The notes under the pieces are model-generated. The model worked only from the letters and a program-made list of their open reading frames with translations. It made no database searches and was not told the origin of the DNA. Positions 146 through 16,194 of a stretch of 19,726 nt of DNA are shown piece by piece. The stretch comes from Spirochaetaceae bacterium (lineage in GTDB: Bacteria; Spirochaetota; Spirochaetia; Treponematales; Breznakiellaceae). A program made the position numbers and the translations under genes. Each line of letters opens with the position of its first letter. The stretch's first letter is position 1. The stretch lies in NCBI GenBank assembly GCA_031255315.1, contig JAIRSS010000269.1:1-19726 (forward strand). The letters run 5' to 3'.

Positions 146-154
146 AGGTTTCTC

Positions 155-1588
155 CTAAATGATATTTTTCAGCACGATGGTCTTGGTCCGGGTTACTTCG
201 TCAAACGTGGACAAGACCCCTTCGGTTCCGATGCCGGAATACTTGTAGCCGCCGAAGGGCATCTCGAAGCTGCGGAAGAAGCTCGCGCCGTTGATAATCA
301 CCCCGCCGCACTCAAGTTGGGCCGCTGTCTTCCAGGCGGTCTTGATGTCCGCGGTAAAAATACAGCCGCAAAGCCCGAAGATGGAGGCGTTGGCAATCTC
401 AACGGCCTCTTCCAGGGTTTCAAAGCCGATAACCGGCACGACCGGGCCGAAAATTTCCATGTCCTTGGCCGCGTCAGCGGTTTTGGGAACCCCCGCGATG
501 ACGGTAGGTTCGTAGAAGGCGCCGTTCCGCCTACCCCCCAGGACGATTTTGCCCCCCTGGGATACGGTGAGGTTCACCTGGCGTTCCACTTCAATGGCCG
601 CTTTTTCGCTGATGAGGCAGCCGATCTGGGTGGCGTCGTCCGCCGGGTCGCCGGTCTTGATCTTCTTGATCCGCTCCACCACTTTTTCCGTAAACGCATC
701 CTTGAGGCTGTTGTGGATGAGGAAGCGCTTGGAGGCGCAGCATACCTGGCCGGTGTTGTACATCCTGCCCCAGATCACTTCCTCGACCGCCAGATCCAGG
801 TCCGCGTCTTTCCACACGATAAAGGCGTCGTTGCCCCCCAGTTCCAGGGCGATATGCGCCAGATGGTTCGCGGCGTTTTTGTAGGTTTCGATCCCCACTT
901 CGGTTGAGCCGGTCAGGGTGATGGCGTGAACATCCGGGTTTTTGCAGAGCCAGCTTCCCACCAGGGAACCCCGGCCGGTAACAATTTCAATGGCCCCGTC
1001 GGTAACGCCCGCCTTGACCAGAAGTTCCGCCAGCATACAAAGGGTCAGGGGATTGTCCGTTGAGGGTTTTACGATGGCGGCGTTTCCCGCCAGCAATGCC
1101 GGCGCGACTTTCTGATCAAAAAGATCGCAGGGAAAATTGAAGGGGATGACGCAGGCCACTACGCCGATAGGTTCCCGTACAGTTAAGAGGACGTGGTGTT
1201 CCTGGTTTTTCTCCTGGCCCGCGGGGATAACGTCGCCGTAGAGGTGCTTCGCCCGTTCCACAAAGCCCTTAAAGGCGATGGGAATGTTGGCTATTTCCCC
1301 CCGCGCCTCGGTGATGGGTTTGCCGGTCTCGTCCGAAAGGGTTCTTGCCAGCTTTTCCTTGTTTTCCTCCACCAAGGCGACGAATTTGAGGAGTATGTCC
1401 CCCTTCTCGTGGACCGGAACCTGGGCCCATTTCTTCTGCCCCTCTTTGGCTTTTTCTACCGCCAGCTTGACGTCGGCTTCGGCGGCTGCCGGAACCGTGT
1501 CGATGACGGCGCCGTTTGCCGGATTGGTTACCTCGATAACCGCCCCGTCGGATGCGTCTACCGCTTTTCCGCCAATGATCATTTTCAT
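155..1588 (-). CDS. NAD(P)-dependent aldehyde dehydrogenase
   Basis: Soluble 477-residue enzyme of the aldehyde dehydrogenase superfamily, oxidising an aldehyde to the acid with NAD(P). Visible motifs: PFNFP with the oxyanion Asn near 151, KPS near 174-176 (cofactor binding), the LELGG general-base Glu near 249, and GQVCCASKR with catalytic Cys near 283. The C-terminal EMPFGGYKYSG motif is typical of the succinate-semialdehyde/lactaldehyde-type branch. Length is normal and all catalytic residues are present. The ATG has a strong AAGGAGA ribosome site at 1599-1605. It is the last gene of a same-strand series with the ROK kinase, glycyl radical enzyme and FIST protein, but the 126-base gap and hairpin before it may separate its expression. 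Lactaldehyde, glyceraldehyde or succinate semialdehyde are possible substrates; the sequence does not decide. Confidence 0.93.
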   Translation of the reverse strand: MKMIIGGKAVDASDGAVIEVTNPANGAVIDTVPAAAEADVKLAVEKAKEGQKKWAQVPVHEKGDILLKFVALVEENKEKLARTLSDETGKPITEARGEIANIPIAFKGFVERAKHLYGDVIPAGQEKNQEHHVLLTVREPIGVVACVIPFNFPCDLFDQKVAPALLAGNAAIVKPSTDNPLTLCMLAELLVKAGVTDGAIEIVTGRGSLVGSWLCKNPDVHAITLTGSTEVGIETYKNAANHLAHIALELGGNDAFIVWKDADLDLAVEEVIWGRMYNTGQVCCASKRFLIHNSLKDAFTEKVVERIKKIKTGDPADDATQIGCLISEKAAIEVERQVNLTVSQGGKIVLGGRRNGAFYEPTVIAGVPKTADAAKDMEIFGPVVPVIGFETLEEAVEIANASIFGLCGCIFTADIKTAWKTAAQLECGGVIINGASFFRSFEMPFGGYKYSGIGTEGVLSTFDEVTRTKTIVLKNII

Positions 1589-1627
1589 TTTTATTTTTTC
1601 TCCTTGATAGTTACACTGAACGTCTAC

Positions 1628-1642
1628 GGTAAAAACTTTACC
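1628..1642. promoter_or_regulatory. Small palindrome upstream of the aldehyde dehydrogenase
   Basis: GGTAAA-AAC-TTTACC, a perfect 6-bp inverted repeat with a 3-base centre, lies about 40 bases upstream of the dehydrogenase ATG. It is a possible protein-binding site. A second near-copy of one half (GTAAAAGTT at 1650-1658) could pair alternatively with AACTTTAC. No regulator can be assigned. Confidence 0.25.
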
Positions 1643-1676
1643 ACAGACTGTAAAAGTTCCGCCGCTGCCTGTTCGA

Positions 1677-1703
1677 GGCGGTTTCAGAACATCAGAAACC
1701 GCC
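1677..1703 (-). terminator. Hairpin behind the FIST gene
   Basis: GGCGGTTTC (1677-1685) and GAAACCGCC (1695-1703) form a perfect 9-bp stem with a 9-base loop, 11 bases past the FIST stop codon on the minus strand. There is no clear U-tract, so termination could be partial or the stem may protect a 3' end. It sits between the FIST gene and the dehydrogenase. Confidence 0.45.
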
Positions 1704-1714
1704 CCGCTCAGATA

Positions 1715-2878
1715 CTATTGGGCAAAGCCCGTATACGAGAGCATGAGGCCGCCTGTGGTATTGTTGCCGTCGTCCTCGTACCCGTATTCCCCAAAGGTGA
1801 ACTCCATGATGAACGGTACGTCCCCCGCCGCCTTCTTCACCCCGGAGACCAGTTCTTCGATTCGGTCTCCGATACCGGCCCGTCTGCCGCCGCAGTGTAC
1901 CAGGTGGAACGCCGCCGGAGGCGCGGTCATTTTCTTCTTGAGGGCTTCCAGCGTCTCAGAACCAGCGGAGATGAGTTCGTCCACCGTTCCCTCCATGCGG
2001 ATTACCGCGGTCTTTTCCGCCAGGTTCGCGCCGATGTTCATGGAATAGTCAGTGTTCCCGTTCATAGGGTGGCGGATGGCGGTAAGATCCCCCAGCCGGT
2101 CCTTGACTCCCAGGGGGGACGTGATGGTATAGACCAGAAGATCCCCGCCTTTAAGGGTTTCAGGGTCAACCCCCGCCCATTCGGCGTAGCGCTTCAGGGC
2201 CGGCTTGCCGTCGATCTCCACCAGAACCCGCTTGTCCCGGACTTTGGTGATGACGCCGACGTCGCCGGTCTCCCGGTAGGCTCCGGTAAAGAGATTGGTT
2301 GCCGGTTTTTCGGAATAGAAAAAAGCCAGGGTTATGCCGTCGGCAAAGACCTGCTGATTGGTAAAGAGCTTCCATTCGCCGGCGATGGCGTTGTCCGCCG
2401 CGCTGCCGCCGAAGAAAGGCTTGCGGCCAATCACGTCGCTTACGCCCTTGAGGAAGGTTTCTTCCTCCCCCGGAGGCGCGGCCATGTAGAAATAGTCCGG
2501 CGGGCAGGTTTTTCCCGCGTTCTTCATAGCTTCCCGGGCCGCCAGCCTTCCGGTTTCCCGGGCGCATCCCCCCTTGGGCACTCCGGCGGCCCCGACGCAT
2601 ATATCGTCCCCCGCCAGGGCCAATATGCCTACAAAACCTTTCTCACCGGAGATAAAGCCCTCGGGGGTAATGACGCCGGTAAACGAGGTGTTCCCAACTA
2701 CGGGAACCCCCGGCAGTTCCTCGCGGATCCCTGAGAGCATCTGAGCCAGATCATAGGCTGCGCTGGCATAGGCAAAGGCAATTTTGACGCCCCCAAGCCC
2801 CGCTTTGACTTTTCCCGCCGCTTCTTTCCCGGCCTCTTTCGGATCAAAAGCAACGCTGGAACCGGTAATACTTTTCAT
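1715..2878 (-). CDS. FIST-domain (FIST_N/FIST_C) sensory-type protein
   Basis: Cytoplasmic 387-residue protein resembling stand-alone FIST N + FIST C proteins, a family proposed to bind small ligands, often amino acids, in signal transduction; no catalytic residues are established. The FIST_N-like part runs about residues 1-210 (VGNTSFTGVI near 61-70, then the FFGGSAADN stretch). The FIST_C-like part covers the rest, ending in the EFTFGEYGYEDDGNNTTGG stretch. I chose the ATG at 2878 over an upstream in-frame ATG at 2938 because AGGAGG lies 7 bases before it. It follows the glycyl radical enzyme on the same strand after a 111-base gap and precedes the dehydrogenase. No kinase or cyclase domain is fused, so any signalling partner lies elsewhere. 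The family call is fairly sure; the role is not known. Confidence 0.82.
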   Translation of the reverse strand: MKSITGSSVAFDPKEAGKEAAGKVKAGLGGVKIAFAYASAAYDLAQMLSGIREELPGVPVVGNTSFTGVITPEGFISGEKGFVGILALAGDDICVGAAGVPKGGCARETGRLAAREAMKNAGKTCPPDYFYMAAPPGEEETFLKGVSDVIGRKPFFGGSAADNAIAGEWKLFTNQQVFADGITLAFFYSEKPATNLFTGAYRETGDVGVITKVRDKRVLVEIDGKPALKRYAEWAGVDPETLKGGDLLVYTITSPLGVKDRLGDLTAIRHPMNGNTDYSMNIGANLAEKTAVIRMEGTVDELISAGSETLEALKKKMTAPPAAFHLVHCGGRRAGIGDRIEELVSGVKKAAGDVPFIMEFTFGEYGYEDDGNNTTGGLMLSYTGFAQ

Positions 2879-2989
2879 AATACGCCTCCTGATACGTTCT
2901 GATAGAATTTGCACGAACCATACGCTCCGTGATACCACAATGGTAACTCCGCTTTTCTTGTCTGTAAAGCGCGGATTGTACGAAAGGTC

Positions 2990-5395
2990 TTACAGGCTCT
3001 GTTCCGTCCGCTTGATTATGTCGTCCTGGGTCTGCCGGGAAAGCACGTTGAAGAACGCGCTGTACCCGGCCACCCTGACGATGAGGTCCCGGTGCTTTTC
3101 TGGGTGAACCTGGGCGTCGAGCAGGGTTTCCCGGGATACCACGTTGAACTGCACGTGGAAGCCGCCGAGGCGGTTGAAGAAGGCGCGGAGTAAGGACGCC
3201 AGCTTGGCCCGGTTTTCCCCGGATTCGAGCATGGCGGGGGTGAGCTTCTGGTTCAAAAGAACGCCGCCGGTAATTTCCGGGATGGGCAGCTTGGACACGG
3301 ATTTGAACACCGCCGTCGGCCCGTTTTTGTCCATCCCGTGTGAGGGGGAACAGCCCTCCGCCAGGGGCTCGCCGGCCTTGCGCCCGTCAGGGGTCGCTGT
3401 GGTGCCCGCGCCCTGGGGCACGTTCGCCGAAATGGAAGAGGTGCCCGCGTAATACACGCCGCCTATGGGCCCCCGTCCGTAACGGGTGTTGCGGTATTTC
3501 TTCATCTCGTCAATGTAGACGTCGTAGGCGGCGCGGACAAGGAAGTCAACGTAATCGTCGTCGTTGCCGTATTTCGGGGCCGCGATTAAAAGTTCCCGTA
3601 TGCGCTCGTTTTCGGCCCCCTCGAAATTCCGCTCCAGGGCGTTCCACAGTTCTTCCGCCGTTACCGACTTATCCTCGAACACGCACTTTTTTACCGCCCC
3701 AAGGGAATCGGCGAGGTTGGCGATTCCCACCTGGAGATCGCTGATAAAGTCGTAGACCGCGCCGCCCTCCTTCAGGTTGCGGCCCCGCTCAATGCAGTCG
3801 TCGCACAAGGCCGAACACAGAATATCCGCTGTATCGCGTTCCAGCACCGTGTCGCAGACCGAATCAATAATGACGCACTGCCGGGTAAATTCACGGATAA
3901 TCTTGTCCCAGGCCCCCATCACCTCGTCAAAGGACCGCATGGCCGTAAAGTGCCCCGCCCCTTCGCAGACCCTGGTTCCCGATTCAAGGTCCACGCCGTC
4001 GTTCAGGGCGATAAGCAGGGACTTGGGAAAGTTGAGGAAACTCATGCCCGTGCAGCGGTAGCCCCATTTACCGGGAACGGCCACTTCCACGCAGCCGATG
4101 GCGCTGTAATTGTAAGCGTCCTCTTTTTTCACCCCCTTCGCGATAAACGAGGGGATGATAACCTCATCGTTGTTAAAGGCCGGCATTCCGAACCCCAGGC
4201 GCACCACCTCGATACATTCCCTCATAAAATCCTCATTAAGCCGCCTGTGGCAGCGCACCGTCAGATTCGGCTGGGGAAGCCGCGTTTGGGCGACGCTCCG
4301 CAGGATAAGGAACGAAAGCGGGTTTACCGCGTCTTCCCCGGCAACGGTCTGCCCGCCAATGGTAACGTTCTGGTAGAGCGGGCTCCCGGCGGAAAAGCGG
4401 GTATGGCTCCAACTCCGGATCTTATTAATGGTAAATGTTTTAAGCCACAGGTTGGTCAAAAGCTCGCAGGCGCTTTTGGCGTCGATGTTCCCCGCCTGTA
4501 CATCCTTCTCGTAGTAGGGGTAAAGGTACTGGTCCACGCGCCCGTAGGAAAGGGAGTGGCCGTTGCTTTCTATCTGAAGGCACAGGTGCACAAGCCACAG
4601 GGACTGCACCGCCTCCCGGAAAGATTCGGCGGGCCCCGCGGGAACCTTATCCAGAATCCTCCCCATCGCAAGAAGTTCCGCCCGCCGCTTTTCGTCCGCT
4701 TCCGTTTCCGCCATTTCCCGGGCGAGGCGGGCGTAGCGTTGCGCGAAGGCGGCTGTCGCGTCCACCACCAGGGAAACCGCCCGGTAAAAGTAGGATTTTG
4801 CCAGATTCCGGTAGTCCGTCAGGTCCAGGGCGGCCAGTTTTTTCTCCACCCGCCGCTTGTACTCCAGAAGCCCTTCCCGCAGCATACGGTTGTAATCAAC
4901 CGCCAGGTGCGCGTCCCCGGAGGTGATGTTTCCCTCGGCCTTGATTATCCCAAGGTCGTAGAAGACCTTCGCCTGGGCGGGCATGGCGGCCAGGCCCCGG
5001 TCCTTGACCGTGTTGCGCCGCCAGAACGGGGCGATTTCCCGTAATACCCGCTTGTTTTCTTCGGTAATGGAGAAACGGTCACCGTCCCGCTTTTCAAATT
5101 CATCGAGTTCCGCGACAACCCAGTCCATCGCGTATTCGGGGAAGACCGGGGCCGCCCGGTTGCGTGACGCGTGGTTCCCCGCGATTAGGGTTTCCTCCTC
5201 GATAAAGACGCTCATCTTTTCCAGGACGTTTTTGTACATCAGCGCCCGCTTTAGGGCCAGGGGCTGGTCCAGATTTTCCCGGTACGTATCGGTGGTGATT
5301 ACCGCCCGCTCGACGCAAACCCGGGGCTTCACGTTTAAGAGCTTCAGGCGGAATTGATGCATCCGCGGTGTCAGTATTCCAAAGCCGCTTTCCAT
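2990..5395 (-). CDS. Glycyl radical enzyme, YbiW-like (C-O-cleaving type rather than pyruvate formate-lyase)
   Basis: Oxygen-sensitive radical enzyme of 801 residues, the usual length for the dehydratase/lyase branch. The glycyl radical loop RVAGYSAFF is at the C terminus (Gly about 777). The active-site loop reads AIGCVE, with a single thiyl Cys about 435 and the partner Glu about 437; pyruvate formate-lyase has two adjacent Cys instead. Blocks such as IIKAEGN..SGDAHLAV, IESNGHS, GSPLYQNVTIGGQ and GKWGYRCTGMSF match my recollection of E. coli YbiW (PflF), reported to open 1,5-anhydroglucitol-6-phosphate to 1-deoxyfructose-6-phosphate. The ATG at 5395 is chosen over one at 5503 because AGGAGA precedes it; that ribosome site overlaps the stop of the upstream ROK kinase, so the two genes are probably translationally coupled. 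Its activase is encoded divergently. A dehydratase for another polyol is the alternative. Confidence 0.93.
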   Translation of the reverse strand: MESGFGILTPRMHQFRLKLLNVKPRVCVERAVITTDTYRENLDQPLALKRALMYKNVLEKMSVFIEEETLIAGNHASRNRAAPVFPEYAMDWVVAELDEFEKRDGDRFSITEENKRVLREIAPFWRRNTVKDRGLAAMPAQAKVFYDLGIIKAEGNITSGDAHLAVDYNRMLREGLLEYKRRVEKKLAALDLTDYRNLAKSYFYRAVSLVVDATAAFAQRYARLAREMAETEADEKRRAELLAMGRILDKVPAGPAESFREAVQSLWLVHLCLQIESNGHSLSYGRVDQYLYPYYEKDVQAGNIDAKSACELLTNLWLKTFTINKIRSWSHTRFSAGSPLYQNVTIGGQTVAGEDAVNPLSFLILRSVAQTRLPQPNLTVRCHRRLNEDFMRECIEVVRLGFGMPAFNNDEVIIPSFIAKGVKKEDAYNYSAIGCVEVAVPGKWGYRCTGMSFLNFPKSLLIALNDGVDLESGTRVCEGAGHFTAMRSFDEVMGAWDKIIREFTRQCVIIDSVCDTVLERDTADILCSALCDDCIERGRNLKEGGAVYDFISDLQVGIANLADSLGAVKKCVFEDKSVTAEELWNALERNFEGAENERIRELLIAAPKYGNDDDYVDFLVRAAYDVYIDEMKKYRNTRYGRGPIGGVYYAGTSSISANVPQGAGTTATPDGRKAGEPLAEGCSPSHGMDKNGPTAVFKSVSKLPIPEITGGVLLNQKLTPAMLESGENRAKLASLLRAFFNRLGGFHVQFNVVSRETLLDAQVHPEKHRDLIVRVAGYSAFFNVLSRQTQDDIIKRTEQSL

Positions 5396-5405
5396 GGTGG
5401 TTCTC

Positions 5406-6380
5406 CTAAAACAGTAATTCCGAAGCGCCGATGACGCCGAAATCTTCGCCCAACTCCGCTTCCTTAAAATAAACCGGCAGAGCGTTCCGGTTATACCCGT
5501 CAAATACCGCTTTCATGCTTTCGAGCAGATTGCCGCCCTTCCCTTCGTCCTTAAGGTTCCTCCACATCTTCAAAAGGCCGCCGCCGAAGATAAAACAATG
5601 TATGTTGAGCGTTACATAGAGATTGTAGGTCCAGACGCCCAGGTACTTGATCATCTGAGCGACGGCCCGGCGGGCCAGGGCGTCCCCCACGTTGTAGGCC
5701 CGCTCAATGTGGATGCAACTAATCTCCCCGCCTCCGGCAAATTCAGGGATCCGGGATTTTTCCCCCCCGTCGATCCAGTTTTGCACGTGCTTCGCTATCA
5801 TCGATCCGGAGCACCAGGACATGATGCAGCCCCGGTTCCCGCAGCCGCACTCCACGCCGTCGTCCGGCGTCATTATCATGTGGCCGCTCTCGCCCGACCA
5901 TCCGTAACGGCCCCGGAATATCCTGCCGTCGATGATAATGGCCGACGAAATCCCCGTGCTTACCGGGCAGTAGAGCAGATTGTCAAAGCCCCGCCCCGCC
6001 CCCAGCCGGTGTTCCGCGAGGGCCGCGGCCCGGGCGTCGTTGTCCAGAACCACCCGGACGCCGCCCAGCTTTTCCATCAGGTAGGCCCGGGCCGGGAAAT
6101 CCCGGAGATTCGTCAGGTTGGAAGTCTTAACGATACGCCCCTCCTCAAACAGGATAAAAGAAGGCGCCCCCACCCCGACGCCCCGGAGATTCTCCTTTTG
6201 TATACGCCGGGCCGCCATGAGTTCCCGGATATTACCGGCAATGCGGTCAAAAAAAACTTCCGGGGAACAGGACGCGTCCGAGGGATGGCTCAGACGGGCG
6301 ATAATATTCTTCCCCCCGTCCAGCAGCCCGTACGCCGTCTTGGTCCCGCCCACATCAATCCCTATCGTATACTGCTCCAT
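5406..6380 (-). CDS. ROK-family sugar kinase with altered sugar-binding motif
   Basis: Predicted cytosolic ATP-dependent sugar kinase of 324 residues. It has the N-terminal phosphate loop DVGGTKT (9-15), the catalytic Asp in LDNDA (about D115), the GESGH motif with zinc ligand His 167, and the zinc motif CGCGNRGC (Cys 178, 180, 185). It lacks the N-terminal helix-turn-helix of ROK repressors, so it is a kinase rather than a regulator. The Glu that normally follows the zinc motif (GCxE) is Met 187 here, and the following residues are SWCSG instead of AYASG. In characterised ROK hexokinases that Glu contacts the sugar near C1/C2, so the substrate may be unusual. Ribosome site GGAGGAGG lies 9 bases before the ATG. 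The stop is 10 bases before the glycyl radical enzyme ATG, making an evident two-gene operon. Confidence 0.9.
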   Translation of the reverse strand: MEQYTIGIDVGGTKTAYGLLDGGKNIIARLSHPSDASCSPEVFFDRIAGNIRELMAARRIQKENLRGVGVGAPSFILFEEGRIVKTSNLTNLRDFPARAYLMEKLGGVRVVLDNDARAAALAEHRLGAGRGFDNLLYCPVSTGISSAIIIDGRIFRGRYGWSGESGHMIMTPDDGVECGCGNRGCIMSWCSGSMIAKHVQNWIDGGEKSRIPEFAGGGEISCIHIERAYNVGDALARRAVAQMIKYLGVWTYNLYVTLNIHCFIFGGGLLKMWRNLKDEGKGGNLLESMKAVFDGYNRNALPVYFKEAELGEDFGVIGASELLF

Positions 6381-6451
6381 AGTTCAGCCTCCTCCGGTTA
6401 GTATTCACCCCAGGCCGTATTCTCTCATATTCTTATTTCATTGATAAGCTC

Positions 6452-6467
6452 TCCCGGTCAGCCGGGA
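6452..6467. promoter_or_regulatory. TCCCGG-N4-CCGGGA palindrome between kinase and activase
   Basis: Perfect 6-bp arms around TCAG in the 208-base region between the divergent kinase and activase genes. The same arms with a 5-base centre recur upstream of the LacI-family gene at 8561-8577. It could be a shared operator or a 5'-UTR hairpin. CCGG-rich palindromes are frequent in this DNA, so chance is not excluded. I could not fix a convincing -35/-10 pair for either gene here. Confidence 0.25.
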
Positions 6468-6588
6468 AGCCTCCTCCTTTGAAACAAGCCCGGTACAGAA
6501 TGCTTTACAATCTTCCGGGCGGAGCGTACCATCTCAGTATGTACATTCCAACACCCCCCGGCGGCGGGTTCGTACCGGTGGAACGGGC

Positions 6589-7485
6589 ATGAAGCGGAAC
6601 AATACGGCGTTTCTTTCCAACATCCAGAAATTCAGCCTCCACGACGGCCCGGGTATACGGACGGTAGTGTTTTTCACGGGCTGCCCCCTCTCCTGCCTCT
6701 GGTGTTCAAACCCCGAAACCAGGGAAGCCGCCGGTTCCGTTTTACGGGACGCCGCGAAATGCGCCCGCTGCCTGCGCTGCGCCGCGGCCTGCCCGGTTCG
6801 CGCGGTTGGGGAAGACCTTTCCATAAACAGGGAAGCCTGTGCTGTCTGCGGGGCCTGCGTCCGGGAATGCCCGCGGGGGGCCTTGTCTATAAACGGCCAG
6901 AGCCGCTCCCTGGAGGAGATCCTGCATGTATGTGTACAGGACCGGCCCTTTTACGAAGAATCCGGGGGCGGCGTAACCCTGTCGGGCGGCGAGGCGCTGG
7001 CCCAGGCGCGGCCCGCCCGCAGGCTGCTGGAAGCCCTCAGGCGCGAGGGAATACACACCGCCCTTGAAACCAGCGGCTGCGCCCCGCCCGCTGTTTTCCG
7101 GCGATTGGCGGAAGCGGCGGATCTGCTGCTCTTTGACCTAAAGCATCACGACAGGGAACGCCATTTTCAAGGGACCGGCGTGTATAACGATCCCATCCTT
7201 GCCAACCTCACAGCCGCCCTTGCCGCGGGAAAACCCGTGCTTCCCCGGATCCCCGTCATACCCGGCTTCAACGATTCCCTGGAGGACGCCCGGGGGTTTT
7301 CCCGGCTTCTTGACTCACTGGGGTTAAAACGGGCCCAGTTGCTGCCCTTTCATCAATTCGGCGAGAAAAAGTACGAAATGCTGGGGCTGCCGTACCCCAT
7401 GCGGGGCGTTCCCCAGCTTCACCGGGAAGACCTTGAGGAATACCGGCGGGTTTTCACCGGTCAGGGCCTTGACTGTTTTTTTTAG
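6589..7485 (+). CDS. Glycyl radical enzyme activating enzyme (radical SAM)
   Basis: Iron-sulfur enzyme of 298 residues that uses S-adenosylmethionine to place the radical on the Gly of its partner enzyme. The radical-SAM motif CPLSCLWC (Cys 32, 36, 39) is followed by a ferredoxin-like insert with two 4Fe-4S motifs: Cys 58, 61, 64, 68 and Cys 84, 87, 90, 94. This insert is typical of activases of the non-PFL glycyl radical enzymes, and the length is close to that of E. coli YbiY. The SAM-binding GGE motif is in TLSGGEAL. The start has only a modest ribosome site (GGTGGAA). It is divergent from the kinase-radical enzyme operon, the only glycyl radical enzyme in view, and is almost certainly its activator. 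Confidence 0.94.
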   Translation: MKRNNTAFLSNIQKFSLHDGPGIRTVVFFTGCPLSCLWCSNPETREAAGSVLRDAAKCARCLRCAAACPVRAVGEDLSINREACAVCGACVRECPRGALSINGQSRSLEEILHVCVQDRPFYEESGGGVTLSGGEALAQARPARRLLEALRREGIHTALETSGCAPPAVFRRLAEAADLLLFDLKHHDRERHFQGTGVYNDPILANLTAALAAGKPVLPRIPVIPGFNDSLEDARGFSRLLDSLGLKRAQLLPFHQFGEKKYEMLGLPYPMRGVPQLHREDLEEYRRVFTGQGLDCFF

Positions 7486-7519
7486 CCCCCCGGCGTTTCA
7501 GGAAACCGCTGCACGCCCC

Positions 7520-8533
7520 CTATCCCTGTCTTATCGTGGTCGATTCCCGTACCAGAAGCTCGGTTTCCAGTATTATGTTGTGCAGGGGAATTTGCGGGTT
7601 GGAAATATACTCGATCAAAAGTTCGCAGCTTGAAAAGCCAAGCTGGTACTGCGGCTGGCTTATGGTAGTAATCGTGGGGTTCGTCATAATGGAAATGTCC
7701 ACATTATCAAAACCCACCACCGCAATGTCGCCGGGTATTGAAAATCCTTTCCGCATCCCCACCTTTATAGCGGCTGCGGCCAGGACGTCGGAAGCGCAGA
7801 GAAACGCGTTCGGTCGTTTGCCGGAGTCAAAAAGCGTGCTGACCGCCGAAGCCGCGAAGTTATAGTTGATTTCAGAAAGCTGGATTCTCATCTTGGGGTC
7901 AGCGGGAATACCCGCGTCCTGAAGCGCTTCAAGGTAGCCCTGAAGCCGGTGCCTGGCGTATTTGTAGCGAATCGGCCCGTTAATGAAGGCTATATTTTTC
8001 CTCCCTATCGAGAAAAGGTATCCTATCGCGGTTTTTGTGGCCGCCACATCATCAATTGACACGTAGGGCAAATCAAAGCCGGCGTCGTACTCGCAGCATT
8101 GCACCAGGGGGACCGTTTCGCTGATCTTTTTCAGATACACCGGATCCATGTGGTTGGTCGTAATAAGGCCGGACACCGGGACCTTCCGGAGCAGGCGCAG
8201 GAAATTATCAATGGTGTTTTCGTTGATATGGTCCTCGTTAATCAGGAGGTGGCACCCCCGGTGCGTCGCGGCGGCTTTCGCCCCATGAATAATCTGGGTA
8301 TAGAAGGGATTCCCCGTTGAAGGCACATTCAGAAGAACCAAGATGTTTCCTTGGTTCTTCCGGCGCTTTTCAATAAATGCGGTGTCGTAACCGTAGTTTT
8401 TGAGCGCCTCAAGAACCCTGCGCCGGGTATCCGCCCGCACGTTCGAAGCCCCGGTAAAAACACGCGAGATGGTCGAAATGGAAATCCCTGTTTCTTCAGC
8501 GATACGCTGGTACGTTGTCTCTTTTTTGTTCAT
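7520..8533 (-). CDS. LacI-family transcriptional regulator
   Basis: DNA-binding repressor or activator of 337 residues. The N-terminal LacI helix-turn-helix is at about 7-27 (YQRIAEETGISISTISRVF) with the hinge helix at about 36-50 (TRRRVLEALKNYGY). A periplasmic-binding-protein-like effector domain follows from about 62 to the end, with GFDNVDIS and TTISQP segments typical of the family. The ATG at 8533 has TGGAG about 9 bases upstream. It converges on the activase with 34 bases between stops and is divergent from the sugar importer across 741 bases, so it most likely controls the importer and possibly the kinase/radical-enzyme genes in response to a sugar. The effector cannot be named from sequence. 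Confidence 0.93.
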   Translation of the reverse strand: MNKKETTYQRIAEETGISISTISRVFTGASNVRADTRRRVLEALKNYGYDTAFIEKRRKNQGNILVLLNVPSTGNPFYTQIIHGAKAAATHRGCHLLINEDHINENTIDNFLRLLRKVPVSGLITTNHMDPVYLKKISETVPLVQCCEYDAGFDLPYVSIDDVAATKTAIGYLFSIGRKNIAFINGPIRYKYARHRLQGYLEALQDAGIPADPKMRIQLSEINYNFAASAVSTLFDSGKRPNAFLCASDVLAAAAIKVGMRKGFSIPGDIAVVGFDNVDISIMTNPTITTISQPQYQLGFSSCELLIEYISNPQIPLHNIILETELLVRESTTIRQG

Positions 8534-8560
8534 ACAGGCGTCTCCAATCAGTATACCCTA

Positions 8561-8577
8561 TCCCGGCTCTTCCGGGA
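8561..8577. promoter_or_regulatory. TCCCGG-N5-CCGGGA palindrome upstream of the LacI-family gene
   Basis: Perfect 6-bp arms 28-44 bases upstream of the regulator ATG, the same arms as at 6452-6467 between the kinase and activase genes. Candidate autoregulatory operator or leader hairpin; weakly supported. Confidence 0.25.
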
Positions 8578-8585
8578 AGAGGTGT

Positions 8586-8655
8586 ATGAAAAAAATATGA
8601 AAATTTTCACTGGAATTATGAAATTTTACAAAAATTTGCAAGTATTTATGAAAAA
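8586..8655. promoter_or_regulatory. TATGAAA-type repeats with a TGAAAATTTTCA palindrome
   Basis: ATGAAA units begin at 8586, 8597, 8618 and 8648, spaced 11, 21 and 30 bases, close to whole helical turns. The second forms the perfect palindrome TGAAAATTTTCA (8598-8609). They lie immediately upstream of the TTGACA promoter of the sugar importer. The half-site recurs across the predicted transcription start (8706-8729). Candidate operators of the neighbouring LacI-family regulator, or phased A-tracts that bend the promoter DNA. Confidence 0.45.
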
Positions 8656-8667
8656 TTCGCCTATTCA

Positions 8668-8697
8668 TTGACAAATTTAAAAGATTATGTCTATACT
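8668..8697 (+). promoter_or_regulatory. Sigma-70 promoter for the sugar importer leader
   Basis: TTGACA (8668-8673), 18-base spacer, TATACT (8692-8697): a near-consensus vegetative promoter in AT-rich DNA. Predicted start is about 8704, giving a leader of roughly 570 bases before the binding-protein ATG at 9275. Confidence 0.7.
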
Positions 8698-8705
8698 GTC
8701 TAAGA

Positions 8706-8729
8706 ATTTTCAGAAAAGAAGATGAAAAT
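8706..8729. promoter_or_regulatory. ATTTTCA-N10-TGAAAAT inverted repeat at the transcription start
   Basis: Arms at 8706-8712 and 8723-8729 overlap the predicted start of the importer transcript and use the same half-site as the 8598-8609 palindrome, a position suited to repression. Candidate operator for the LacI-family protein. Confidence 0.4.
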
Positions 8730-8871
8730 CCGTATGGTTTTATTTGTACTTTATGCAGCTTGTATTGTAATGCGGGGGACCCGTGGTCGTGATAAATGGC
8801 GTTCGAATGTCTGCTTTACTACGCCGCTGTTATGTGATGCTCAATTTCTTTTTCAAGGAGGAAGCCTATGA
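8722..8871 (+). CDS. Small ORF 1 in the importer leader (49 codons)
   Basis: An uninterrupted 49-codon frame starts about 18 bases after the predicted transcription start, behind a weak AGAAG ribosome site. The product begins MKIRMVLFVLYAACIV: a charged start and a hydrophobic stretch ending in AAC, vaguely like a lipoprotein signal but without the usual Leu at -3. The remainder is polar with two further Cys. The stop TGA overlaps the ATG of a second micro-ORF (ATGA). I recognise no homologue. It may be a real small membrane-linked peptide, a leader peptide, or chance. Confidence 0.3.
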   Translation: MKIRMVLFVLYAACIVMRGTRGRDKWRSNVCFTTPLLCDAQFLFQGGSL

Positions 8872-8915
8872 TGCAGTCTAGGAGTTTGCTGCGCTTCGCG
8901 CTTAAAAATATATAA
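8868..8915 (+). CDS. Micro-ORF 2 in the importer leader (15 codons)
   Basis: MMQSRSLLRFALKNI, with a strong AAGGAGG six to seven bases before the double ATG; it overlaps the stop of small ORF 1 by ATGA. Its codons 5-8 form the left arm of a 9-bp stem (8881-8889 with 8944-8952) and its stop codon lies in the left arm of a 13-bp hairpin (8911-8939). A ribosome translating it would therefore melt or block both stems, the geometry of a regulatory leader peptide. No homologue is known to me. Confidence 0.35.
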   Translation: MMQSRSLLRFALKNI

Positions 8916-9021
8916 ATATTCATGAAATGAATATTTATACCGTGCAAACTCCAAAAGGAGCCCTGTTAATCGGGATTTTTGCATGAATATGCAAAAAAAT
9001 CCACAGGTGCAACAGGCTCCT
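8881..9021 (+). other. Multi-stem structured leader upstream of the sugar-binding protein gene
   Basis: Five stems can be drawn. P1: GGAGTTTGC 8881-8889 with GCAAACTCC 8944-8952, enclosing P2 (GCGC-TTC-GCGC, 8891-8901) and P3 (13 perfect base pairs, 8911-8923 with 8927-8939, loop GAA). P4: 8956-8967 with 9011-9021, 11 pairs with one bulged C. P5, nested inside P4: GGATTTTTGCAT (8973-8984) with 8989-9002, two bulged A. I do not recognise a known riboswitch class. It could be a regulatory leader or a small palindromic repeat element inserted upstream of the gene. The remaining leader (9022-9274) holds a 6-bp inverted repeat at 9145-9164 and a GCCGTC/GACGGC hairpin at 9214-9234, and no gene. Confidence 0.5.
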
Positions 9022-9274
9022 GGGACCTCCTGAAAAATTGTTAATTTCCAGCGGGGTCCGATGATTTCCCGTTCATTTAAAAATTGGCTGTTTCAAATGA
9101 TCCGGCTGTATTGAACGGTAGATTCAACATCTGTGGTTGGGCGGTTAGAAATGAAGCATTCTAAATGGTTAGATCGATTAATTCCAGCCGCGATTCTGAT
9201 TGAGGCAGGATTTGCCGTCTGTACAACGGACGGCGGGGCCTATGAAATATTAGTGCAAGTGTAAGGAGAAGAAG

Positions 9275-10429
9275 ATGCAAAAGAAAACGCTTTTGGTTTT
9301 GCTCGGCATTGTTTTGATGCTCGGCATTATCGCGGGTAATGGCTTTGCCAGCGGCGGCAAACAGACCGGAGACACCGTGTACGTGTTCGGGCCTACCCCG
9401 GATCACGGCTGGACAGGTTCTGCGGCGCGTTTCGCCGAGGAAAAAATTGCCCAGTTGAACGCGGCCGGCGGGAAATACCGGTATGTATTCCGCGCCGCCG
9501 GCAGCCCGGATGACCAGATCAAGCAGATCGAGGCCGTGATGGCGGAAAGCAGAAAGCCCGCCGGGGTGGTCATCCAGGCGTCCGACAACATGGTGCAGGC
9601 TGCGGTGGAGCAGATTGCCAACGCGGATATTCCGCTCATTCTGTTCGACCGGCTTCTGGACGGGACCAGCCCTCTTATCAGGCAGAAGATGCTTATCGCC
9701 ATGAGCGCCGACAACTACGCGATTGGCGCGGGGGCGGCCTATTATATGGTGCAGAAGGGCCTTACCCCTGGAGAGGCCATCTGGGAACTCCCCGGGGACA
9801 ACTCGGCGGTAAGCGTCGAGCGGGCTACCGGTTTCCGTGAATTCCTCCTGGGGACCCGGCCGTTCAACGATGATCAGGGACAGGCCCACACTATCCCTGC
9901 GGACAAGAAGTGGACTGAAGCCCAGATCCAGAGCGCTGTCACCTCTTCCCAGGTCGCCAACTGGTCGCGGGATAACGCCAAAACCTACTTTGAGTCCTAT
10001 ATCGCGGGCAAGACTCCCCAGACCATGGCGAAGTGGCTGTGGACTATGGACGATGAATTCGTAATGGGCATTCTGGAATTGCTCCAGACCCCGGCTAAGG
10101 CCGCTGAAAACGAGGTCTTTGAATCCACCGTCAAGGTTATTACCGGCTGCGGCGGCCTTATCGCGCTTTACGACGTGATGGGCAGGACCAAGGCGGACGC
10201 CGGCAACCAGCTCTACCAGCCCGACGGGGTGGCCATCATGAGCCCCACCTGCCGTCCCGGCTTCTTTGTCGACGCCATCCAGCTTATGGACGAGGCGCTG
10301 AACGGCAAGGATCTTTCCCCGTATTTTACGGACAGGCCGGCAAAGCGTTTCCATGAACCGCCCCACCTGGTGGATACCGCAAGCTGGGCGGCTAACAAGA
10401 ACAACCCGAGCTGGCGCGGGTTTGACTAA
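9275..10429 (+). CDS. Sugar ABC transporter periplasmic substrate-binding protein
   Basis: 384-residue periplasmic binding protein of the ribose/galactose-type (type 1 PBP fold) that captures the sugar for the downstream ATPase and permease. Residues 1-26 are a typical signal peptide: MQKK, a long hydrophobic run and a GFAS|GG-like cleavage site with no lipobox Cys. The mature part has the two-lobed pattern: VYVFGPTPDHGWTG, then VVIQASDNMVQAAVEQ and ADIPLILFDR at the first lobe and hinge, and a second lobe with WELPGDNSAVSVERATGFREF. It is somewhat longer than E. coli MglB (about 330). The ribosome site AAGGAG before the ATG is strong. The ligand is unknown; galactose or glucose cannot be assumed, and the neighbouring kinase and radical enzyme make a modified hexose or polyol possible. 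A terminator-like hairpin after the gene fits its expected excess over the membrane subunits. Confidence 0.9.
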   Translation: MQKKTLLVLLGIVLMLGIIAGNGFASGGKQTGDTVYVFGPTPDHGWTGSAARFAEEKIAQLNAAGGKYRYVFRAAGSPDDQIKQIEAVMAESRKPAGVVIQASDNMVQAAVEQIANADIPLILFDRLLDGTSPLIRQKMLIAMSADNYAIGAGAAYYMVQKGLTPGEAIWELPGDNSAVSVERATGFREFLLGTRPFNDDQGQAHTIPADKKWTEAQIQSAVTSSQVANWSRDNAKTYFESYIAGKTPQTMAKWLWTMDDEFVMGILELLQTPAKAAENEVFESTVKVITGCGGLIALYDVMGRTKADAGNQLYQPDGVAIMSPTCRPGFFVDAIQLMDEALNGKDLSPYFTDRPAKRFHEPPHLVDTASWAANKNNPSWRGFD

Positions 10430-10445
10430 GAGCCGGGGGGCTTTG

Positions 10446-10475
10446 CCGGCGGGCTTTCGGAGCGACGCCTGCCGG
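10446..10475 (+). repeat. First hairpin after the binding-protein gene
   Basis: CCGGCGGGC (10446-10454) pairs with GCCTGCCGG (10467-10475), nine pairs with one G-U, 17 bases past the stop codon. A short GTAAAA/TTTTAC inverted repeat follows. Likely stabilises the 3' end of the binding-protein mRNA. Confidence 0.4.
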
Positions 10476-10502
10476 TAAAAGCGATTATTTTACAGAACAG
10501 GC

Positions 10503-10531
10503 GCGGCGGGGGCGCATGGCATCCCCGCCGC
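10503..10531 (+). repeat. Second hairpin, GCGGCGGGG/CCCCGCCGC
   Basis: Perfect 9-bp arms (10503-10511 and 10523-10531) with an 11-base loop, directly followed by a run of A and the third repeat. Same likely role in mRNA processing or stability. Confidence 0.45.
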
Positions 10532-10534
10532 AAA

Positions 10535-10581
10535 AACCACGAAGTCAGGGATGTTTTTCCACGCCTTCGTGGTTAATTTTT
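10535..10581 (+). terminator. Terminator-like hairpin between binding protein and ATPase genes
   Basis: AACCACGAAG (10535-10544) and CTTCGTGGTT (10565-10574) form a perfect 10-bp stem followed by AATTTTT. With the A-run before the stem this looks like a partly active intrinsic terminator that would lower ATPase/permease expression relative to the binding protein. Confidence 0.55.
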
Positions 10582-10589
10582 GAACAACC

Positions 10590-10664
10590 GAGGCTGATCC
10601 AAAACCGCGTCCCCGGCTATGCCGGGAACCTTAGCGCACAGTCAATTAGTTTTGGAACAGCCTC
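10590..10664. repeat. 75-base palindromic element upstream of the ATPase gene
   Basis: GAGGCTGATCCAAAAC (10590-10605) and GTTTTGGAACAGCCTC (10649-10664) are inverted with one mismatch in 16. The enclosed DNA holds a perfect CCCGGC-TAT-GCCGGG hairpin (10612-10626). A partial relative (GAAGCTGTTCCAAAC) occurs near 16167 upstream of ruvA, suggesting a dispersed repeat family, perhaps a REP/MITE-like element; copy number cannot be judged from this window. Confidence 0.4.
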
Positions 10665-10696
10665 AACCTCAATATCTTTTGTATAGAGAAGTGCCA

Positions 10697-12250
10697 ATGA
10701 CGATACTTTCAATGAAGAATATTTCCAAGACATTTTTCGGCGTAACGGTCCTTGAAAACGTGAACTTTGAAGTCGCGGCGGGGGAAGTCCACGCCCTCCT
10801 CGGGGAAAACGGGGCGGGGAAGTCCACGCTGATGAATATCCTTGGCGGAGTCTACACAAAAGATTCCGGCGAGGTTACGGTAAACGGCGTTACGCTGGAA
10901 AACCCTTCGGTTTTGGAATCTGAAAAAGCGGGGGTGGCTTTTGTTCACCAGGAACTTAATCTTTTTAACGAGCTGCTTGTTTTTGAGAATCTGTTCCTCG
11001 GCAAGGAGATTCTGTACAAGACACGGACGCTGAATAAAAAGGCGATGATCGCCCGGGCGTCGGAATTGTTCGCCAGCCTGGGGGTCAGTATTAACCCCAG
11101 GGCGCTGGTAACGAATCTTGAAACCAGCCAGAAACAGCTTCTGGAAATCGCCAAAGCCCTTGACGCTGACGCGAAGCTGATCATCCTTGACGAGCCGACC
11201 ACCGCGCTTAACACATCGGAGATTGAACATCTTTTTTCCATAATTAGGCGTTTAAAAGAAAAAGGAATGAGCTTTATTTTTATTTCACATAAAATGCCCG
11301 AAATTTTTGCCCTCGCCGACGGGTATACGGTTTTACGGAACGGGCGTTTTATCAGATCCGGCAGGATCGCCGATACCAACCCCAAAGAACTCACCGCTTT
11401 TATGGTGGGGCGCGAGGTTTCGGATGGGGAAACATACGAAAAACGAAACCCCGGAAACGTGGTCCTTGAACTGGAAAACTGTTCCGGCGAGGGATTCCGC
11501 GGCATTTCCCTTAAAGTCAGGAAAGGGGAAATTATCGCCCTTACGGGCCTTGCGGGTTCCGGGGCAAGCAACCTGATGCAGGCCATGTTCGGGGCCGCCC
11601 CCTTCTATTCCGGGAGATTCACCGTTGCCGGGAAAAAAACGTCGAACATCAACATCCGAGCCTACGGCATCCATACCGCTATGAAAACCGCCCGCATCGG
11701 CATGGTGCCGAGCAACCGGAAGGAAAATTCCATACTGCCCTTTATGCAGCTTCTGGAAAACGAGTATATTTCAGAGCATACGCTTTCGGCCTTTCGGTTC
11801 CATATTTTTAATAAAAAGGAAGCCGCCAAATACAACGGGTACAAACAACTTCTTAATATAAAGGCGAATACCTGCAAAGACCCGATTACCAGTCTGTCGG
11901 GAGGCAACCAGCAGAAGGTTATTCTGGCCCGGCTCCTCAACACAAACGCCGAAATTTTCCTGCTGGACAATCCAACCCAGGGTATAGACGTGGGCGCCAA
12001 AAGCGAGGTTTACAAGCTGATCCTTCAGCTTTCCGAACAGGGCAAAACCATCCTGGTTAACACTCTTGAAATCCCCGAAATCGAGAAGGTTGCGGATCAA
12101 TGCGTGGTTTTCTACCACGGCAGAATTCACGCCATCCTTGACAGAAACGACATTAACGAAACAACCGTAATGCTGCACGCCACCGGCGCGGTGTTGGGCG
12201 GCGCCGCGGAGGCGGGAACGCCGGAAACAAAACAGGGAGTGGAAATATGA
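10697..12250 (+). CDS. Sugar ABC transporter ATPase with two nucleotide-binding domains (MglA/RbsA type)
   Basis: 517-residue fused double ATPase powering sugar import, on the cytoplasmic face. Domain 1 (about 1-240): Walker A GENGAGKS (36-43), Walker B LIILDEP with catalytic Glu near 166 and switch His 198, but a degenerate signature (LETSQ near 141). Domain 2 (about 255-495): Walker A reads GLAGSGAS with no Lys, Walker B reads LLDNP with Asn at 425 in place of Glu, while the signature LSGGNQQ (400-406) is canonical. So one composite site is complete and the other is lost on both halves. I chose the ATG at 10697 over an in-frame ATG at 10619 because domain homology begins there and a weak AGAGAAG precedes it. 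Its stop overlaps the permease ATG (ATGA). Confidence 0.94.
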   Translation: MTILSMKNISKTFFGVTVLENVNFEVAAGEVHALLGENGAGKSTLMNILGGVYTKDSGEVTVNGVTLENPSVLESEKAGVAFVHQELNLFNELLVFENLFLGKEILYKTRTLNKKAMIARASELFASLGVSINPRALVTNLETSQKQLLEIAKALDADAKLIILDEPTTALNTSEIEHLFSIIRRLKEKGMSFIFISHKMPEIFALADGYTVLRNGRFIRSGRIADTNPKELTAFMVGREVSDGETYEKRNPGNVVLELENCSGEGFRGISLKVRKGEIIALTGLAGSGASNLMQAMFGAAPFYSGRFTVAGKKTSNINIRAYGIHTAMKTARIGMVPSNRKENSILPFMQLLENEYISEHTLSAFRFHIFNKKEAAKYNGYKQLLNIKANTCKDPITSLSGGNQQKVILARLLNTNAEIFLLDNPTQGIDVGAKSEVYKLILQLSEQGKTILVNTLEIPEIEKVADQCVVFYHGRIHAILDRNDINETTVMLHATGAVLGGAAEAGTPETKQGVEI

Positions 12251-13245
12251 GCGATGTTTCTAGTGGGGTGAAACGTACCAAAACAGCGGACAATATTCTC
12301 GCGCTATGGGAACGTTACAGTTATGCGGCGATTTTTATCGCGATATTTATCACCTTCGTCGTGGTAAGCAAGAACCTTACCTGGTCAAGCGTCATGCTTG
12401 TACTGCGCCAAAGCGCGGTTATCGGCATCATAGGATTCGGCATGGCCCTGGTTATCCTTGTGGGAGACATCGATCTTTCCGTGGGTTCCGGTATGGTGCT
12501 TATATCCGGTCTGACCGTTATGGTGTACAACGCGACGGACGGCAATTCGCTTGCCGCCCTGCTTGCGGCGCTGGGCATGGGGATGGCGGCCGGTTTCTTC
12601 AACGGTCTTTTAGTGGGCCTGGCGAAAATGCCGCCCTTTATCGTTACGCTTGCCACCATGCTCATCTTCCGTTCTCTGGCCCTGTACATAAGCGATTCCA
12701 AACTTTACGAACTGGATTCATCCAAAGATTCTTTCAGAACGCTGCATTACGGATTCGGCAATTCTTCTTTTCTTACCGTCCCCATTGTAGGCATCATGTT
12801 CCTCCTGGTCGCCTGCGCGATTATCTACCTGTGTACTTCGACCAAATACGGGAAGAAGATATACGCGCTGGGAAGCAACGCCAGGGCGGCGCGGCTTGCG
12901 GGCATCAACACCGAATGGCTAAAGGTAAGCCTGTTTGTAATCTGCGGAGTGCTTGTGGGCTTTTCCGCCTTTGTGAACGCCGCCATGAACCGCAGCGTTT
13001 CGCCGGCAACCACCGGCCAGACCTTCGAGATGTTCGCCATCGCGGGGATTGTGCTGGGAGGCATAAGCATGTCAGGGGGCAAGGGGCATACGGCGGGAAT
13101 AATTTTCGGTACCATGTCGTTTACTATGGTCAGCCGGATCATAGACGCCTTTGAGTTAAGCACCACCATGAACAACACCGTCAAAGGCGTCATCCTGCTC
13201 CTTGCCATCGCCCTCCAGATGATCAAGAAGCGGGCGAAAGAATAG
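12247..13245 (+). CDS. Sugar ABC transporter permease (MglC/RbsC type)
   Basis: 332-residue inner-membrane permease of the branched-chain/ribose class. It has many hydrophobic spans beginning at about 27-41, and the family motif GDIDLSVGS at about 73-81, normally G(G/A)IDLSVGS. The conserved cytoplasmic loop YGKKIYALGSNARAARLAGI at about 199-218 couples to the ATPase, and a GISMSGGKG loop lies near 274-282. Full length. ATG overlaps the ATPase stop by four bases and has GGAG upstream, so the two are translationally coupled. With the binding protein and ATPase it completes one importer. E. coli counterparts carry galactose or ribose; the substrate here is not decidable from the permease. Confidence 0.94.
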   Translation: MSDVSSGVKRTKTADNILALWERYSYAAIFIAIFITFVVVSKNLTWSSVMLVLRQSAVIGIIGFGMALVILVGDIDLSVGSGMVLISGLTVMVYNATDGNSLAALLAALGMGMAAGFFNGLLVGLAKMPPFIVTLATMLIFRSLALYISDSKLYELDSSKDSFRTLHYGFGNSSFLTVPIVGIMFLLVACAIIYLCTSTKYGKKIYALGSNARAARLAGINTEWLKVSLFVICGVLVGFSAFVNAAMNRSVSPATTGQTFEMFAIAGIVLGGISMSGGKGHTAGIIFGTMSFTMVSRIIDAFELSTTMNNTVKGVILLLAIALQMIKKRAKE

Positions 13246-13281
13246 GGAGTGATGCTCCTCGGGGATTCGGGAATTTCCTGA

Positions 13282-13329
13282 AAGGAGGCGGTGATTCCAG
13301 CCGGCAGGCCGGTTTTCTCCCGCCTCCTT
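13282..13329 (+). terminator. Long-arm inverted repeat after the permease gene
   Basis: AAGGAGGCGG (13282-13291) and CCGCCTCCTT (13320-13329) are perfect 10-bp arms around 28 bases that contain CCGG-CAGG-CCGG. It lies 36 bases past the permease stop. It has no T-run after the stem, so it is a probable operon end or 3' stabiliser rather than a textbook terminator. Confidence 0.45.
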
Positions 13330-13380
13330 ACGCCGTTTGGCTGTTCCCTCCTTCAGTTCGACGCTCTTTGCCGCGGTATG

Positions 13381-13408
13381 TTGTTTTACGCCCTAATTGT
13401 AGTATATT
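13381..13408 (+). promoter_or_regulatory. Promoter of the TrpR-family gene, leaderless geometry
   Basis: TTGTTT (13381-13386), 16-base spacer, TATATT (13403-13408). Only six bases separate the -10 box from the ATG, and no Shine-Dalgarno is present, so transcription should start at or next to the A of the ATG. Confidence 0.55.
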
Positions 13409-13414
13409 TACCCT

Positions 13415-13705
13415 ATGAAAATTGACGATCCTGTCGTAACGGAAAACCTAGAGGAACTGGTCCAGCGTTTGGCGGAAACCACGGACGGGAGGCTTATTGA
13501 GGACTTTTTACGCTGCCTTTTGACCCCTGCCGAGATTACGGACATAGCCGCCCGTTGGGCGCTGGTTAAAGCCCTGGACAAAAAAGTGCCCCAGCGGGAA
13601 ATTTCAGAAACCCTGGGGCTTTCTCTTTGCAAAATCACCCGCGGCTCACGGGAACTCAAAAAGCCGAATTCGGCGTTCAAGCGTATGCTGGAACCTCCGA
13701 ATTAG
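13415..13705 (+). CDS. TrpR-family (TrpR/YerC-like) transcriptional regulator
   Basis: Small 96-residue all-helical DNA-binding protein. It aligns well with E. coli TrpR over LTPAE...ARW.LVKAL...QREISETLGLS...ITRGSRELK, with the helix-turn-helix at about 63-82. Of the TrpR residues that hold tryptophan, the counterparts of Thr44, Arg54 and Arg84 are present (LTP, AARW, ITRGS), whereas the Thr81 position is Lys. It could therefore still sense tryptophan or a related ligand, but no tryptophan gene lies in the window, and the related YerC family has no firm ligand. The gene has no ribosome site and looks leaderless. Its stop codon TAG overlaps the TAA of the convergent hydratase gene. Confidence 0.85.
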   Translation: MKIDDPVVTENLEELVQRLAETTDGRLIEDFLRCLLTPAEITDIAARWALVKALDKKVPQREISETLGLSLCKITRGSRELKKPNSAFKRMLEPPN

Positions 13706-16026: not shown

Positions 16027-16032
16027 ACTGTT

Positions 16033-16061
16033 TTTATACCACATTTCCTGGAACAAAGAAA
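16033..16061 (-). promoter_or_regulatory. Promoter of the hydratase gene, leaderless geometry
   Basis: On the minus strand TATAAA (16033-16038) ends six bases before the ATG at 16026. The matching -35 (TTTCTT, 16056-16061, 17-base spacer) is poor, so the -10 box carries most of the weight. Confidence 0.45.
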
Positions 16062-16194
16062 GTATCGCAGTCAGAAATTTTACAGTAATGAGGCATTGAA
16101 TGGGGAATGCTCACGGCGCCGCCGCGCCGGCGATCCGGAACGCATGATGGAAAACCGCCGCTAATTGAAGCTGTTCCAAACGGGGATTCTATTC

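Follow-up and report, generated by a model that had tools for sequence, protein, structure and literature searches.

The window analysed here is a stretch of 19,726 nucleotides from Spirochaetaceae bacterium (assembly GCA_031255315.1, contig JAIRSS010000269.1, positions 1 to 19,726), and it carries a glycyl radical enzyme of the YbiW type together with a ROK-family kinase, an activase, a LacI-family regulator and an ATP-binding cassette (ABC) sugar importer. The locus is probably the front end of a YbiW pathway that is independent of the phosphotransferase system (PTS). Sequence comparison gives good support to the kinase and the radical enzyme as a PTS-independent module for anhydrohexitols, and the importer is a plausible, less certain, supplier of this module. 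According to a passage of the review PMC12441222, a PTS is the first step of the known pathways. Our literature search for kinase or ABC variants of the pathway, done in full text and judged in part by title and the start of the abstract, found none.

We infer the following scheme. The ABC importer would bring in a 1,5-anhydrosugar, which may be 1,5-anhydroglucitol, 1,5-anhydromannitol, or a keto form. The keto form would be reduced by an oxidoreductase of the Gfo/Idh/MocA family, which relatives encode near the importer or the kinase. The ROK kinase would then phosphorylate the anhydrosugar at O6, using ATP, and the YbiW-type enzyme, charged by the divergently encoded activase, would open the ring to give 1-deoxyfructose-6-phosphate. 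The features of the locus are as follows.

2990..5395, minus strand: glycyl radical enzyme, YbiW-type, 801 amino acids (PFL-like 693 bits, Gly_radical 121 bits)
5406..6380, minus strand: ROK-family kinase, 324 amino acids, zinc motif retained, Met187 at the sugar 1-OH position (codon 5820-5822; ROK 165 bits)
6381..6588, no strand: intergenic region between the divergent kinase-enzyme operon and activase, weak promoter-like match at 6504-6532 (consensus scan only)
6589..7485, plus strand: glycyl radical activase with ferredoxin-like 4Fe-4S motifs (TIGR02494 317.5 bits, cut-off 174)
7520..8533, minus strand: LacI-family regulator (profile and locus comparison)
8668..8697, plus strand: promoter-like TTGACA-18-TATACT upstream of the importer (11/12 consensus match)
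9275..10429, plus strand: sugar-binding protein of the importer, ribose/galactofuranose-binding fold class (Peripla_BP_4 66 bits)
10619..12250, plus strand: sugar ABC ATPase, two-domain (profile matches)
12247..13245, plus strand: sugar ABC permease (BPD_transp_2 139 bits)

The sequence-only reading of this DNA had listed the same genes at about these places, and its observation is confirmed, apart from the start of the radical enzyme. This start is the ATG at 5395 and not the open reading frame (ORF) start at 5503, which runs into the kinase gene. An AGGAG stretch resembling a Shine-Dalgarno sequence overlaps the TAG stop codon of the kinase (5408-5406), and 10 bases further lies the ATG of the enzyme, so that kinase and enzyme look translationally coupled. 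The closest relatives found for the window come from metagenome bins of Treponema and Spirochaetaceae. In one of these loci, L001, the radical enzyme is 94% identical to that of the window, and the DNA is 91.7% identical over 3432 bases.

By its sequence, the radical enzyme belongs to the YbiW type. It is 54% identical to Escherichia coli YbiW over 805 columns and 39% identical to PflD when compared in BLASTP. Among proteins of solved structure, 6xs4 (925 bits) and YbiW (913 bits) were the best sequence matches, followed by B12-independent glycerol dehydratase with 604 bits. The catalytic pair Cys435/Glu437 and the Gly777 radical motif RVAGYSAFF are present, with the codons for Cys435 at 4091-4093 and Gly777 at 3065-3067. 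The GKWGYRCTGMSF stretch and the RYGRGP insert are common to the window enzyme and YbiW and are absent from PflD. A quick tree placed the window enzyme in a well supported group with those of loci L001-L003. In this tree, YbiW and PflD are the sole named references and sit on long branches, and the label 'out_' was wrongly given to seven main enzymes whose search motif is a variant form. The enzyme is predicted to be a 1,5-anhydrohexitol-6-phosphate ring-opening lyase.

The kinase has the ROK hallmarks DxGGT, ND, GH and the three-cysteine zinc motif. A passage of PMC2742894 gives GHx9-11CxCGx2G(C/H)xE as the motif common to ROK kinases and lists its last Glu (E588 in human GNE) as one of five sugar-binding residues. 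In PMC5458393, Glu588 is counted among the residues needed for N-acetylmannosamine, and the authors of PMC10031466 describe D187 of P. shigelloides NagK as engaging the 1'-OH. This final Glu is not kept in the window kinase, which has Met187 in the column of NagK D187 (position counted by hand from the sequence). Met occupies the 1-OH position in 40/40 kinases of the cluster, the window's included, and in 157/157 of a larger, similarity-picked set in which some proteins occur twice. The same column holds Glu in all four solved ROK proteins shown and Asp in NagK. As a control, the residue was read in 30 out of the 70 ROK matches from 14 genomes, giving Met in 11, Glu in 12 and Gln in 2, with 5 left without a resolved residue. 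All 11 Met-type control kinases adjoin a YbiW-type enzyme by their contig positions (L214 via the stretch L226); for the Glu- and Gln-type genes, position relative to the enzyme was compared in the spirochaetes. 1,5-Anhydrohexitols have no 1-OH, and therefore loss of the 1-OH contact would be expected in a kinase acting on them. Met187 thus appears to fit a substrate without 1-OH, e.g., a 1,5-anhydrohexitol, and the window kinase is predicted to be a 1,5-anhydrohexitol 6-kinase.

The neighbourhood of the enzyme was surveyed in genome loci that encode close relatives of it, the best 80 out of 181; many of these 80 are cut by contig ends. Most of the genomes are metagenome bins whose completeness is not stated, ORF picking and clustering were heuristic, and the cluster counts depend on contig ends. 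Of the 80 loci, 64 have an activase of the same type and 60 a DeoR regulator; 39 have a kinase of the ROK family found in the window, 34 have an FSA-type aldolase, and 10 have a BglK-like ROK protein. The kinase and the enzyme adjoin in 39 of the 80 loci, which is more than chance. The set of family genomes numbers 195, of which our own selection (at least 69% identity, partial matches included) took 37 as enzyme-bearing. Within this set, 29 of the 31 genomes with the kinase have the enzyme. Kinase, enzyme and FSA occur together in six Firmicutes loci (L012, L013, L017, L024, L029, and L043).

No PTS match was found in the window by profile scan or tblastn; the latter was run with E. coli FsaA, FsaB, GldA, PtsA, FrwC, and FrwB, none of which matched. 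Of 31 related spirochaete genomes, 19 gave no PTS_EIIC match. PTS genes are near the enzyme in the ROK-less loci L027, L033, and L060, and FrwC/FrwB-like genes in L068, among the part of the loci that was scanned for PTS. The claims that the enzyme is YbiW-like, that the ROK kinase is coupled to it and that this kinase would stand in place of a PTS are supported: the enzyme groups with YbiW, the pairing is conserved, and both residue 187 and the PTS_EIIC search are consistent with a kinase-based entry. Clustering with other radical enzymes, which the sequence-only reading had named as one of two outcomes that would refute it, was not seen.

Other combinations of these genes were seen in the survey. 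Ten loci with no Met-type kinase (L030, L032, L037, L047, L057, L058, L059, L063, L066, and L073) have, downstream of FSA, a member of a second ROK family, which is BglK-like and has no zinc motif. Loci L057 and L066 of this group share a neighbour cluster, the L066 member of which is PTS_EIIC. Christensenella hongkongensis, the source of L046, carries a further locus, L226, in which a second YbiW-type enzyme, 62% identical to that of the window, is accompanied by a Met-type ROK kinase of its own, an activase, a LacI-like regulator, and an rbs-like importer. Next to the YbiW-type locus, L064, L070, and L075 encode a PflD-like radical enzyme, its activase, and a protein of about 600 amino acids, which by eye we take to be hexokinase-like; L074 has parts of this set. 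These genes may form another kinase-based branch, for the mannitol isomer.

The importer comprises the ribose-type (CUT2) set of binding protein, two-domain ATPase, and permease. The model of the binding protein has a predicted local distance difference test (pLDDT) value of 75, and its ten best folds, at 15-19% identity, include ribose-, galactofuranose-, and arabinose-binding proteins; no close solved relative was found by sequence, and the fold matches leave ligand specificity untold. In locus L010, a block homologous to the importer (binding protein 79%, ATPase 74%, and permease 78%) lies downstream of the enzyme and an epimerase. In L166, the ROK kinase, enzyme, epimerase, importer, and a Gfo/Idh/MocA oxidoreductase follow one another on one continuous strand. 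The importer is thus linked to the kinase-enzyme pair in three spirochaete loci (the window, L010, and L166), and in L077, from an Oscillospiraceae bin, a distant importer homologue (32%, 55%, and 41%) comes after the enzyme. The enzyme is present in 14 of the 20 genomes with the importer and in 37 of the 195 overall (Fisher 1.3e-7, kinship ignored). The LacI regulator, at an identity of at least 45%, was found only in L010 (67%), L176 (56%), and L001 (94%, partial). It is divergent from the importer in the window and in L176 and stands beside the importer in L010, and appears to go with the importer block. The leader of the importer, about 570 bases between the strong promoter-like site and the binding-protein gene (within 8534-9274), is long. 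An Rfam scan of the window, this leader included, gave no match at the gathering threshold, and the terminator scan of the window was at background (16 versus 17.9 in shuffles).

An oxidoreductase of the Gfo/Idh/MocA family is directly beside the importer in L099, L166, L168, and L176, directly before the kinase in L034, and about 1.2-1.3 kb from the importer in L171 and L175. The window has no such gene. The nearest solved relatives of the oxidoreductase are DgpA1 (181 bits), DgpA (173 bits), and the 1,5-anhydrofructose reductase 2glx (95 bits). It was found in 42 of the 195 genomes, 18 of them among the 37 with the enzyme, so it also keeps other company. For glycoside eliminases, a passage of PMC10628242 gives 1,5-anhydro-hex-1-en-3-ulose as the product, which is converted there to glucose. 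As a speculation, 1,5-anhydro-hex-1-en-3-ulose or 1,5-anhydrofructose could feed the pathway in these spirochaetes.

Several observations weigh against the locus as a PTS-independent front end of a YbiW pathway, and those on the importer come first. L010 and L166 are close relatives (DeoR regulators 95% identical), so that the importer linkage rests on few independent events. No importer was seen in 23 of the 37 genomes with the enzyme, and no enzyme in 6 of the 20 with the importer. In spirochaete genomes with both, the importer is mostly on other contigs and in other contexts; a close orthologue of the binding protein, in one case a fragment, was found in 8 of 26 enzyme-bearing spirochaete genomes, on contigs other than that of the enzyme. 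A different importer, of the rbs type with two permeases (c6-c9), is by the pair in seven loci (L006, L046, L054, L062, L072, L074, and L075), which counts for the front-end reading as well as for the rival that follows. It is possible, although we doubt it, that the importer and the LacI regulator serve another sugar of the ribose class and adjoin the pair by chance, the anhydrosugar entering by another way such as the rbs-type importers; the mostly unrelated contexts of the importer operon and the fold matches that do not tell the ligand agree with this. The linkage in L010 and L166, the homologue in L077, and the co-occurrence speak against a chance neighbour, as do the importer of L177, which adjoins a DeoR regulator of the enzyme-locus type (72%), and the single oxidoreductase family that is found beside the importer and before the kinase. 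The link to the importer, which the sequence-only reading had left as not proven, now has moderate support.

The downstream half of the pathway is the other point of weakness. The expectation had been that an FSA-type aldolase and a GldA-type enzyme, both outside the window, would be found elsewhere in the genome. The tblastn search agrees with the first part, and relatives were searched for the second. With the FSA profile at 1e-15, which matches 8 of the 195 family genomes, FSA was not found in 36 of the 37 genomes with the enzyme, and the match in the remaining one is a fragment. A GldA-like gene was found in 7 of the 31 genomes searched and not in the other 24, in a search aimed at GldA. 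Because FSA and GldA are mostly not found, the known pathway cannot be completed, and this half of the earlier interpretation is not supported in this lineage; the interpretation as a whole is partly supported. Listed matches to the class II aldolase family PF01116 were present in 167 of the 195 genomes and in 33 of the 37 with the enzyme, so that incompleteness of the genomes alone does not explain the missing FSA. An extra class II aldolase was considered as the substitute for FSA and rejected, as 23 of these 33 genomes have one copy and 10 have two to five, which does not indicate a shared second enzyme. A further 22 enzyme-bearing genomes were searched at 1e-15, and 10 of them gave no FSA match. 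Thirteen of these 22 are Firmicutes in which the Met-type kinase adjoins the enzyme, chosen for the lack of an adjacent FSA in their locus (L017 excepted); 7 of the 13 gave no match, among them G212 (Flintibacter muris, by its title an isolate). The spirochaete genome G023 (L047), which is outside the family set, has the enzyme, a full FSA, and the second ROK family rather than the Met-type kinase. All 34 locus aldolases keep the FsaA residues K85, Q59, T109, and Y131, which we take to be important.

The missing FSA would also be explained if the radical enzyme acted on another sugar or polyol phosphate and gave a different product. This is unlikely: identity of 54% to YbiW leaves room for a shifted specificity, but the conserved stretches of the enzyme are alike in FSA-bearing and FSA-less members, and the change in the kinase fits a ring sugar without 1-OH. 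A protein of about 360 amino acids from the TAL_FSA superfamily was seen, via weak FSA-profile matches, in 6 of 26 spirochaete genomes (G011, G014, G015, G017, G019, and G021; loci L109, L110, L112, L113, L114, and L120). The copies in L109 and L112 score 135-142 bits to PF00923 and are under every NCBIfam cut-off, those for transaldolase and FSA included. This protein is no more than a candidate for the aldolase of this lineage.

For the kinase, 8 of the 37 enzyme genomes have no match to the Met-type kinase, and the genome G093 has the regulator, activase, and kinase but no enzyme within the 677 bases remaining on its contig. PTS_EIIC is present in 12 of the 31 spirochaete and 10 of the 13 Firmicutes genomes. 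That the kinase is an ordinary glucokinase which precedes the enzyme by chance is very improbable; the ROK glucokinase subfamily is its best NCBIfam match, but with 160 bits it is far below the cut-off of 260, and both the replacement of the signature Glu by Met in every kinase of the cluster and the presence of the enzyme in nearly all kinase genomes speak against it. An identity of the enzyme as a glycerol, propanediol, choline, hydroxyproline, or sulfopropanediol lyase, for which general family membership (TIGR01774) alone speaks, is largely refuted by sequence, as the choline, hydroxyproline, sulfopropanediol, and PflD equivalogs of NCBIfam give 540-603 bits against cut-offs of 1000-1109 and glycerol dehydratase is 300 bits under YbiW.

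With the PTS-independent kinase-enzyme module retained, a wider proposal is offered tentatively. The spirochaete pathway might differ from that of E. coli at both ends: a dedicated importer and an oxidoreductase similar to DgpA and anhydrofructose reductase would stand at its entry, the Met-type ROK 1,5-anhydrohexitol 6-kinase would replace the PTS, and a non-FSA aldolase, for which the protein of about 360 amino acids is the candidate, would act at its end. The anhydrohexitol would then possibly come from keto-anhydrosugars released by cleavage of glycosides or glucans. If the PTS-independent pathway is true, a recently reported anaerobic sugar pathway extends to organisms that are often without PTS uptake. 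The Met for Glu exchange in the ROK zinc motif would be a one-residue, genome-searchable signature that predicts kinases for sugars without an anomeric hydroxyl. With the aldolase missing from nearly all enzyme-bearing genomes of the family, the use of the product becomes a concrete, testable question.

Other genes of the window lie outside this locus. An aconitase-superfamily hydratase of the PRK11413 family (13702-16056, minus strand; 1203 bits against a cut-off of 641) is placed between the importer and an ORF presumably ruvA-like, as named by eye. On the other side, at 1715-2938 on the minus strand, a FIST-domain protein with weak similarity to NosP (60.7 bits, cut-off 450) is encoded. The hydratase, the FIST protein, and an aldehyde dehydrogenase were rejected as pathway members, as no counterpart was found in the other loci compared (at least 45-60% identity over at least 100 residues). 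A plasmid search gave 156 matching records, the best five with about 63% identity.

Among known systems, the locus is closest to the E. coli YbiW/YbiY/FsaA system of 'radical-mediated glycolysis', which the review PMC12441222 describes. The radical enzymes are 54% identical, each has its own activase, and an FSA-type aldolase is nearby in 34 of the 80 related loci. The systems differ in the ROK kinase and ABC importer, which are present here where no PTS is, and in FSA and GldA, for which most relatives of this lineage gave no match. The E. coli PflD/PflC/FsaB/GldA system with its Frw PTS is similar in the enzyme superfamily and, as a passage of PMC12441222 describes it, in the product; it is unlike the window in that the enzymes are only 39% identical and the PTS genes are inside the E. 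coli cluster. The oxidoreductase of the relatives, not encoded in the window, has DgpA-type oxidoreductases and 2glx as its nearest named solved relatives, at moderate similarity. The kinase shares with other ROK kinases (NagK, NanK, and glucokinases) the fold family, ATP motif, the sugar residues ND, E, and H, and the zinc cysteines. It differs from them in the Met at the last Glu of the signature, the position at which NagK has an Asp that contacts the 1-OH of the sugar.

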